Positions 31,418-32,795 of a stretch of DNA of 42,064 bases are shown piece by piece. The stretch comes from Bacteroidales bacterium (GTDB lineage Bacteria; Bacteroidota; Bacteroidia; Bacteroidales; UBA932), in contig JAEEVG010000016.1 of NCBI GenBank assembly GCA_016290835.1, positions 1 through 42,064 on the forward strand, written 5' to 3'. The position numbers and the translations under genes are program-made. Each line of letters begins with the position of its first letter. Within the stretch, counting starts at the first letter, position 1. The notes under the pieces were generated by a model, which searched no databases, was not told the origin of the DNA, and was given only the letters and a program-made list of their open reading frames with translations.

Positions 31418-31711
31418 TTAATTCTCGAATTTCTTTTCCTTGACGCGGGTTAGCTTTTCCTTCATTGCGTCCACGGCCTCCGTGACCGCATTCTCGAAGG
31501 TGTCGGCTTCGCGCTCGATGATGAGCTCTTCACCCGGAACGTGAATCTGGATCTTAGCCAGCTTGCCTTGTTTGAGATGGTCTTCGAGCGCCACCTCGAC
31601 CTCCTCGGTCAGGCCTTCGCAGAAGCGGGCCAGGCGGGAGGCTTTCTTTTCGACGAAGGCGGCGAGCTGCTCGCCGGCTTCGAACTTCAGGGCCTTGAGT
31701 TTAATCTCCAT
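31418..31711 (-). CDS. hpf: Ribosome hibernation-promoting factor (short HPF/YfiA)
   Basis: A 97-residue S30AE-domain protein: MEIKLKALKFEAGEQLAAFV, then ASRLARFCEGLTEEVEVALE, AKIQIHVPGEELIIERE and FENAVTEAVDAMKEKLTRVKEK, the two-helix/four-strand fold with the basic C-terminal helix that binds the decoding site of the 30S subunit. The length is that of the short form. The ATG at 31711 overlaps the end of the recombinase gene by 11 bases; the longer frame from 31756 is inside that gene. Confidence 0.92.
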   Translation of the reverse strand: MEIKLKALKFEAGEQLAAFVEKKASRLARFCEGLTEEVEVALEDHLKQGKLAKIQIHVPGEELIIEREADTFENAVTEAVDAMKEKLTRVKEKKFEN

Positions 31712-32795
31712 GGTTACCGTCGTTTTTTGCCCTTGGATGGGCGGAGTTATACACATTTTGCAGCCGCTCGATGGAATTGTGCGTGTAGACCTGGGTTGCC
31801 GCCAGGGAGCTGTGGCCCAGCATTTCCTTGATGGAATTGAGGTCCGCTCCCCCGTCCAGCAGTTCCGTCGCCAGCGTGTGGCGCAGGACGTGCGGGGACT
31901 TCCTGCCGCTGATGCCGGAGACGCCGCCGAGGGCCTCCTTGACCGCCCGGTCCACGTAGACCGGGTAGAGACGTCCGCCTTTGGGGGTCTGGAGCAGCGG
32001 GGCTTCCGGGGTCTTGTCCGCGTATTTCAAAGAGTCAACCGATTGTAAATATAACAAAATTTCGTCACAAAGTGAAGGGAGGAGCGGAATTTCGCGAATT
32101 TTGTCGCCCTTTCCCAGGACGCGCAAGGTGTGGCGGGACCAGTCGACGGAGTTCCGGTTGAGGCCGATGAGTTCGGAGCGGCGGAGGCCGGTGCCGTAGA
32201 GCAGGCCGAGGATCATGCGGCGGAGCTGATCTTCGTAGCGGCCGTATTCGAGCACGCCTTTGGTCTGCTCGAAATAAGCCTGCATGGCATCCTCGCGATA
32301 GAAGGCCGGCAGGCGTTTCTCCTGTTTGGGGCGCGAGACGAGGCGCACCGGATTGCTCTCCAGGGCGCCCTGCTTGATCAGGAACTTGCAGAAGCCGCTC
32401 AGCACGCTCAGATGAAGATTCACCGTCCGCGCACTCTCCTTCCGCTCATCCATCAAATACACCTCATACCGCCGCACATCCTGAACCGACAACACCTCGC
32501 TCCACGGATAACTGCCCCCGGAAACGTCCGTCGGTTCAGCACCAGACGGAGCCTCAGCAAGGCTCTGCCCGGCAGAACCGTGGCCGCCCGTGGTCTCGTG
32601 AACGGGAGGGGCCCAACCGTCAGGTTGGGAGGGATGAGCGCGGAGCGCGAAGTTCTGCCGGGCAGAGGCCTTGCTGGGCTCCACACTATCTGAGCAGAAA
32701 CAAAGGTATTCTTCGAGGACGCTGCGATAGATCTCGCAAGTACGCGGAGAATAACGCCGGACGCCCGAAAGATATTCAATGTAGCGATCGATCAT
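31701..32795 (-). CDS. xerC: Tyrosine recombinase (XerC/XerD-type) with a palindrome insertion
   Basis: A 364-residue recombinase, about 60 longer than its relatives. Catalytic residues are present: R205 (GTGLRRSELIGL), K229 (LGKGDK), H302-x-x-R305 (PHVLRHTLATELLDGG), H328 (LGHSSLAATQ) and the nucleophile Y337 (QVYTHNS). It is of the Xer chromosome-dimer-resolution type, no phage partner near. The surplus lies in the N-terminal core-binding domain, at about residues 38-95, between YLCFC and VQDVRRYEVYL, and coincides with a palindromic element in the DNA (32549-32681). The frame is preserved through it. Whether the enzyme still works cannot be told from sequence. Confidence 0.88.
   Translation of the reverse strand: MIDRYIEYLSGVRRYSPRTCEIYRSVLEEYLCFCSDSVEPSKASARQNFALRAHPSQPDGWAPPVHETTGGHGSAGQSLAEAPSGAEPTDVSGGSYPWSEVLSVQDVRRYEVYLMDERKESARTVNLHLSVLSGFCKFLIKQGALESNPVRLVSRPKQEKRLPAFYREDAMQAYFEQTKGVLEYGRYEDQLRRMILGLLYGTGLRRSELIGLNRNSVDWSRHTLRVLGKGDKIREIPLLPSLCDEILLYLQSVDSLKYADKTPEAPLLQTPKGGRLYPVYVDRAVKEALGGVSGISGRKSPHVLRHTLATELLDGGADLNSIKEMLGHSSLAATQVYTHNSIERLQNVYNSAHPRAKNDGNHGD
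32549..32681. repeat. Palindromic element inserted in frame in the recombinase gene
   Basis: Arms of 30 bases (32549-32578 and 32652-32681) match in inverted orientation except for one single-base gap in each (GAGCCTCAGCAAGGC against GAGCCCAGCAAGGCC, then a perfect TCTGCCCGGCAGAAC). The 73-base centre has three smaller hairpins: CCCGT/ACGGG (32587-32591, 32602-32606), CCCAACC-gtca-GGTTGGG (32612-32629) and GCGC-gga-GCGC (32638-32648). A further stem TCCGTC/GACGGA lies next to it (32527-32532, 32545-32550). The transcript could fold as a long stem with a branched loop. It encodes about residues 39-83 of the recombinase. Confidence 0.85.

Follow-up and report, generated by a model that had tools for sequence, protein, structure and literature searches.

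The stretch of DNA analysed here (the window) comprises 42,064 nucleotides of the forward strand of contig JAEEVG010000016.1, from a genome of an uncultured Bacteroidales bacterium (GCA_016290835.1). On its minus strand a gene for a tyrosine recombinase is read through a large palindrome, and an initial annotation made from the letters alone rightly placed the insert at residues 39-83 of the protein (minus-strand positions 32681-32549). The features of the locus, with the evidence for each, are as follows.

31701..32795, minus strand: host gene for a XerC/XerD-type tyrosine recombinase of 364 amino acids, read through the element (open reading frame, protein-family profiles)
32549..32578, plus strand: 5' arm of the closing stem P1, mostly copy-specific, the bases just before the core being of the AAAAC type in most copies (repeat search, folding, copy comparison)
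32579..32585, plus strand: 5' side of pseudoknot helix A, CGTGGCC (both-side changes in 5 of 6 counted pairs)
32586..32586, plus strand: single linking purine (G or A), its identity coupled to that of the purine at 32600 (purine counts over copies)
32587..32591, plus strand: 5' side of pseudoknot helix B, CCCGT (both-side changes in 2 of 5 pairs)
32592..32598, plus strand: 3' side of pseudoknot helix A, GGTCTCG (covariation, pair types)
32602..32606, plus strand: 3' side of pseudoknot helix B, ACGGG (covariation, pair types)
32607..32611, plus strand: conserved AGGGG (columns invariant or almost so)
32612..32629, plus strand: hairpin P3, with a CCC/GGG base invariant in the 59-copy alignment and a variable top (folding, alignment)
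32630..32635, plus strand: conserved AGGGAT (alignment)
about 32636..32651, plus strand: region of hairpin P4, variable and missing from many copies (alignment)
32652..32681, plus strand: 3' arm of the closing stem P1 (repeat search, folding, copy comparison)

The palindrome at 32549-32681 is confirmed as real and far beyond chance. The 30-bp inverted repeat annotated at 32549-32578 and 32652-32681 is present; its arms are 77% complementary when gaps are disallowed (the repeat search places them at 32548-32578 and 32652-32682), and one bulged base per arm turns them into a near-continuous stem. Folding of both strands, a check proposed at the outset, gave z-scores of -7.1 (plus) and -7.4 (minus), and 0 of 200 dinucleotide shuffles folded as well on either strand. 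The three further hairpins ascribed to the centre prove, on comparison of copies, to be a pseudoknot at 32579-32606 together with the two hairpins P3 and P4. A BLAST search with the 133 bases gave no second copy in the window, in line with the earlier reading. The host is indeed XerC/XerD-like: the protein matches NCBIfam TIGR02224 (E 8.4e-73; 245 bits, below the cut-off of 335 for that model) as well as Pfam Phage_integrase and an N-terminal SAM-like domain, and these matches flank the insert on either side. The insert itself contributes the peptide WAPPVHETTGGHG. An AlphaFold model of the protein (20 sequences, mean pLDDT 71) assigns a pLDDT below 50 to residues 39-94, a stretch lying between helices 17-36 and 104-117, and the insert peptide in this linker is accordingly predicted to be disordered.

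The same element occurs at many other places. The recommended search with the full 133 bases found 13 places in the genome of origin, including the query, plus two arm self-matches, and a covariance model built from 59 copies found 20 copies there in the genus and family scans (17 and 9 in the stricter order and class scans). A first search matched 20 of 41 genomes, all of the same genus, and 0 of 16 from other families. Within the genus, the covariance model matched 50 of 61 genomes (1 to 40 matches in each); 20 of 59 genomes in the family, spread over 9 of 25 genera, with 1 to 47 matches; 4 of 198 genomes in a sample of the order, two of them outside the family; and in a sample of the class only 1 of 395, which was the genome of the window itself. 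Few candidates were scored per genome (59-61 in the genus and family scans, 18 in the order and 9 in the class), so the copy numbers given are minimum values and weak relatives could have escaped notice. Scanning named genomes with a core pattern yielded at least 112 stretches, and the 80 titles listed are Bacteroidales, Bacteroidia or Bacteroidaceae, mostly metagenome-assembled genomes from ruminant and other animal guts, one of them a Candidatus Cryptobacteroides. The genomes are mostly metagenome bins, one per species; the copy counts include orthologous copies in related species, which are not independent, and core conservation is overstated because most copies were fetched through a match to the core. 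Viral contigs gave no exact match to the degenerate core pattern, and plasmids and phages no BLAST match to the element.

At the xerC locus itself, filled and empty sites can be compared. A protein search found XerC matches in all 61 genomes of the genus, and the covariance model, applied to 30 of these loci (30 of 61 genomes), detected the element in three: that of the window, G311 and G008. Among named loci, L092 and L134 likewise carry it in xerC. The insert is antisense and at one common xerC position in the window, G311, L092 and L134; G008 and a second copy in L134 are variants in the opposite orientation within the same linker, whose length varies among relatives. A relative lacking the insert, which had been named as a desirable check, exists: the xerC gene of G015, on a partial contig and 83% identical to the window protein over residues 87-283, continues across the site and has neither arm. 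Comparison of orthologous loci yielded two further empty sites, both intergenic (L133 against L010/L073; L088 against L084); both are without arms and their surrounding bases align poorly, and a short target duplication at L010/L073 is possible by eye. With many dispersed copies inside and between genes and a relative whose xerC is free of it, the suggestion of a mobile or once-mobile element is supported, and the palindrome is one copy of a dispersed element family rather than a loop expansion; the same insert in all relatives with no copies elsewhere, the pattern of an ordinary loop, was looked for and not found.

Comparison of the copies also reveals what they have in common. In the usual plus-strand order, drawn from 138 distinct core matches, the first arm is followed by CGTGGCC, a purine, CCCGT, GGCC.CG, T-purine-A, ACGGG, AGGGG, P3, AGGGAT, an optional P4, AAG or similar, and the second arm. 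CGTGGCC pairs with GGCC.CG, which itself lies in the loop of CCCGT/ACGGG, an arrangement that constitutes an H-type pseudoknot. Among 25 diverse copies, 7 of the 11 pseudoknot pairs have changed on both sides, where shuffles give 4.0, and there are 43 double-change cells against 13.5 (0 of 500 shuffles); sliding the pairing partner abolishes the signal, and the count of pair types alone lies within the shuffles (117 of 500). Two of the 27 rows prepared were dropped to give these 25: one was the second standard copy in L048, the other L119 (+), whose decayed copy has unpaired arms and a helix A that does not pair; at least four rows (L200, L210, one of L211, and L267) are out of register in helix B and were left as aligned. 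A descriptor that demands pairing retrieved helix A as GGCC/GGCC, AGCC/GGCT, TGCC/GGCA, CTGC/GCAG and others, and the same approach retrieved helix B as CCCGT/ACGGG, CCCGC/GCGGG, CCCTC/GAGGG, CCCAT/ATGGG and CCCAC/GTGGG. The linking purine covaries with its counterpart in the T-purine-A loop, with GG in 120, AA in 12 and other combinations in 6 of the 138 copies, and GG in 126, AA in 17 and AG in 3 of 146 descriptor hits. The conserved core is a pseudoknot with compensatory changes in both crossing helices, followed by one or two hairpins. Individual copies depart from this plan: L073 and L098 have an additional GC-rich hairpin in P4 (CCCCGCAAATC...GATTTGTGGGG), and in L108 (7221-7395) and L031 the pseudoknot part of the core is partially duplicated in tandem.

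Many copies reside within genes. According to our own codon-usage gene finder, 111 of 124 copies lie far enough from the ends of their loci; seven have no gene on one side, and the remaining 104 could be classed. Of these, 29 are inside predicted genes, 22 antisense and 7 sense, and none of the 29 host genes is interrupted by an internal stop. The 15 different host genes, some hit in several species, are xerC, dnaX, polA, uvrD/pcrA, trmB, rlmB, murB, rsmA, rsmE, ygiQ and genes for an RlmI-like 23S rRNA methyltransferase, an aminotransferase-fold protein, a nucleotidyl transferase, an arginase-family protein and a DUF5107/TPR protein, several of these assignments resting on model scores below the curated cut-off. 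The inserts in polA, dnaX and uvrD lie between Pfam domains. In RsmA the insert parts two segments that directly adjoin each other in a solved structure (the first aligns at only 3.3 bits), and in MurB, the product of a usually essential gene, it lies in the segment left unaligned between residues 67 and 120. One species has an rsmA gene (L063, 4150-4640) with about 110 codons at the site of the element in one open frame, made up of a sense-orientation element and another GC-rich palindrome.

The reading frame leaves its own imprint on these copies. At least one antisense frame is open in 115 of 124 copies, and stop codons account for most of the antisense excess within genes (22 of 29; p 0.008 against one half), since open frames alone lead one to expect 65% (p 0.25). 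The 22 antisense copies in genes encode a peptide of the WAPPV type in 16 cases and of the GPLPF and GPSRS types in 3 each, while overall the three frames are similarly open (80, 76 and 74 of 124 copies). The preference for the WAPPV frame has p 0.0004 by copy and p 0.025 by host gene (7 of 10, grouped by hand with one mixed-frame host left out), and stop codons do not explain it. In one of the 16 WAPPV copies, L022, the frame shifts within the element; the polA copies L020 and L022 are read in different frames over part of the element and both genes are open, which suggests that an open frame is selected for.

The arms behave differently from the core. The threshold for paired arms was reached by 124 of the 134 copies with sufficient left flank; both partners have changed in 15 of the 16 arm pairs of the 59-copy alignment, and double-change cells over the whole structure number 341 against 117 in shuffles. 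Yet in most genomes looked at no arm sequence is common to all copies. Arm wobbles in 83 non-redundant copies (G.U 37, A.C 13, p 0.0009; other mismatches 39, Watson-Crick pairs 1429) favour the plus strand as the folded one, a smaller earlier count having been non-significant (G.U 13 against A.C 8, p 0.38); P4 pair counts were not used for this purpose because one P4 sequence is common to many copies. In the same 83 copies G.U makes up 2.4% of arm pairs, a share that a selected RNA stem would be expected to exceed and that weighs against our preferred explanation.

How the arms come to differ is clearest in G007. In eight of its nine copies the P3 hairpin varies by no more than one base (of eight matched by pattern seven are alike to this degree, and the ninth copy, L294, has the same P3 as judged by eye), and the left arms of the nine show a mean identity of 0.32 over 36 pairs, or 0.40 over the 12 pairs whose 36-base interiors are at least 97% identical; even so, 19-20 of 20 arm positions pair. 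By the same interior criterion, arm identity is 0.41 in G293 (20 pairs; 8.1 of 20 positions pair in register, a low value due to mismatches and gaps), 0.50 in G000 (11 pairs, 3 of them below 0.5) and 0.73 in G092 (17 pairs, 4 below 0.5). At orthologous loci, compared over 24 chosen and partly overlapping pairs, the arms are 79% and the flanks 78% identical. At fixed loci the arms thus change at about the rate of their flanks, so turnover of the arms would go with movement, and from these sequences it seems to take place when new copies arise, with G007 as the clearest case. Arm changes between orthologues comprise 40 one-sided, 22 Watson-Crick double and 11 other double changes, and the excess of one-sided over Watson-Crick double changes speaks against the preferred explanation.

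Taken with the patchy distribution, the dispersal, the presence and absence at orthologous sites, the pseudoknot core, the covarying arms and the in-frame placement in genes make it probable that we are dealing with a family of small, non-autonomous, dispersed palindromic (MITE-like) elements belonging to one Bacteroidales family, a copy of which inserted in frame into xerC in an ancestor common to a few species. At about 120-190 bp the element is too short to hold a transposase gene. During movement the plus strand would fold, as single-stranded RNA or DNA, into the form recognised by a trans-acting enzyme, which would explain why the core is kept. A new copy would start with perfectly paired arms, perhaps because insertion uses the other arm, or the target, as the template for one of them, and XerC may tolerate its insert because the antisense orientation usually keeps a frame open and the linker is predicted to be disordered.

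A stronger version of this proposal, in which the knotted core travels as a folded single strand and a new complementary pair of arms is made at many insertions, we regard as rather unlikely. The G007 copies, with near-identical interiors and left arms that differ yet pair, are what it would lead one to expect, but interior-identical copies in G092 more often have like arms, those of G000 fall half way, and neither the two intergenic empty sites nor the empty xerC show either arm. In several subfamilies, moreover, arm segments are common to different loci, so the arms must be at least partly inherited. Insertion into palindromes that existed beforehand is not favoured either, because the empty sites lack a palindrome and a perfect one of roughly 50-70 bp would presumably be needed each time.

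One genome, G075, presents the element in the form of a MITE. Here terminal repeats, TAYGATTATCCGCAAAATTACC and its complement with no more than 4 mismatches over 19 bases, enclose 13 of the 20 copies read. Next to the ends of these copies the longest direct repeat has a mean length of 8.1 bases, against 5.7 when the right flanks are permuted (0 of 2000 permutations as high), and reaches at least 8 bases in 9 of the 13 copies; this test concerns G075 alone, and single copies are often unremarkable because the flanks are AT-rich. The terminal sequence has 99 matches in the genome (up to 3 mismatches) and its reversed control none. Three of the matches read are hairpins of about 55-85 bases that lack the core, and L223, one of the three, is apparently an internal deletion. 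Elements of about 56, 69, 82, 170 and 394 bases with common ends occur in G075, for example at L217-L219 and L222-L224. The significant target duplications and the abundance of the terminal repeat would suit a classical MITE, with a transposase acting on the terminal inverted repeats and the core as a passenger. For the family as a whole we nevertheless give this explanation only a small chance: outside G075 the inverted repeats formed by the arms vary for the most part from copy to copy, without common ends beyond the AAAAC/GTTTT-type bases beside the core, and neither a transposase nor an autonomous element with the same ends was recognised, by eye and from partial translations, in the 20 of 99 G075 terminal-repeat loci read.

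Could the core instead be kept for the benefit of the host, as a cis-acting regulatory RNA (riboswitch-like or a processing signal) that was once spread by mobility? Compensatory changes in both pseudoknot helices and the coupled purine pair would fit such an RNA, and the xerC copy of G311, found independently by the protein search, keeps 35 of 36 core bases. Core identity at orthologous sites is 92%, against 78% for the flanks, a figure biased upwards because most loci were fetched via the core pattern; it hints at a function in place and to that extent counts against the preferred explanation. On the other side, there is no fixed gene class or orientation: among the 75 intergenic copies with genes on both sides, 28 run opposite to and 17 along co-directional neighbours, 19 lie between convergent and 11 between divergent genes, the in-gene copies are mostly antisense as described above, and no common promoter was seen by eye in the printed copies. 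A regulatory RNA of this kind is improbable.

Still more doubtful is the idea that the element is of REP type and owes its movement to a Y1 (RAYT) transposase encoded in the same genome. The genome of the window has three Y1_Tnp genes, and in G091 the only copy listed lies some 40 bases behind such a gene; this was the one case in which the stretch around a Y1 gene contained the element among 23 loci read, a part of those present in these genomes, and at the other 22 no copy flanked the gene as one would in a REP/RAYT system. Y1_Tnp was found in 17 of 20 genomes with the element and in 23 of 39 without (Fisher p 0.076), and three element genomes (G045, G049 and G058) had no match to it. All six Y1 loci searched for palindromes have others of their own; at these loci (L144, L146, L267, L268, L273 and L285), whose genes are RAYT-like, the nearby palindromes differ from locus to locus. 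Gene distribution, the locus scan and the palindromes around Y1 genes thus all fail to support this idea. A link to reverse transcriptases was rejected likewise, RVT_1 being present in 4 of 20 element genomes and 12 of 39 others without association. Across these 59 genomes no enzyme is tied to the element by Y1_Tnp or RVT_1 association, which counts against the preferred explanation. An ordinary loop expansion of XerC, finally, although compatible with a disordered linker of variable length, has next to no chance, given that the same core recurs some 20 times in the genome and is present, across species, in 14 further genes, and that G015 has a xerC without the insert.

The closest likeness is to the Rickettsia palindromic elements, which are 105-146 bp long, form a long stem-loop, lie in and between genes and produce in-frame fusions (PMC2229807, PMC10969869), and which reviews give as the best-known case of protein-coding palindromes. 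The comparison drawn in the initial annotation holds in the sense that the present element appears to work like them: it is a palindromic stem-loop of about 100-150 bp, genic as well as intergenic, and by our own gene calls inserted in frame in conserved protein genes. Compared by description only, the two differ in that the Rickettsia elements belong to another phylum and, in the accounts consulted, are described only as long stem loops with terminal inverted repeats, whereas the present element has a conserved pseudoknot core and covarying arms whose sequence changes from copy to copy. Bacterial MITEs (NEMIS/Correia, ERIC, RUP, YPAL) are alike in size, base-paired RNA and lack of an enzyme of their own (PMC2229807), and the G075 form adds terminal repeats and target duplication to the resemblance; the family differs in that its arms are not common to all copies in most genomes and its conserved part is central and knotted. 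GTAG- and CGTC-tagged REP palindromes share dispersal, opposite-orientation pairs and occasional placement in genes, including those of replication and repair, but are 20-40 bp long (PMC3733652); the present element is larger and without linkage to Y1 genes. Resembling Rickettsia palindromic elements and MITEs in what it seems to do, it may best be filed as a member of neither.

With the structured RNAs of Rfam 15 the element shares comparative evidence for an RNA-like fold. It reached no Rfam gathering score in 21 loci and 401 bases of the window: the window gave two hits (E 0.19 and 0.26) far below gathering, eleven loci searched at gathering gave two tRNAs only, and ten loci searched by E-value gave sub-gathering matches to microRNA-precursor models (best E 8.5e-5) and to sroD (E 0.36), which are taken as long hairpins fitting hairpin models. 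The families of a study of 104 candidate RNAs are reportedly included in Rfam. In the openly licensed literature we found no described Bacteroidales counterpart, the initial annotation likewise having known of none, and we know of no described small bacterial repeat with a pseudoknot core and covarying, mostly copy-specific arms; the family is apparently undescribed. It would offer an apparently independent and wide case of protein-coding palindromes, in Bacteroidales of animal guts and in frame in conserved genes, and the many conserved genes that carry the insert allow its effects on how proteins function and genes evolve to be compared from gene to gene. The combination of a pseudoknot core with covarying, copy-specific arms points to an unrecognised way of moving, which it would make testable.

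Some copies are found in unusual company. Adjoining pairs in opposite orientation occur in L134 (4371-4651), L093 (1888-2170), and L210 and L211 (G258); the paired copies in L134, L093 and L210 belong to different subfamilies, one with GGGAGGGGT replacing GGGAGGGAT. At the start of a contig in G013 (L287, 1-787), a divergent copy is contained within a 306-base tandem array of 2.6 units with 95% matches.
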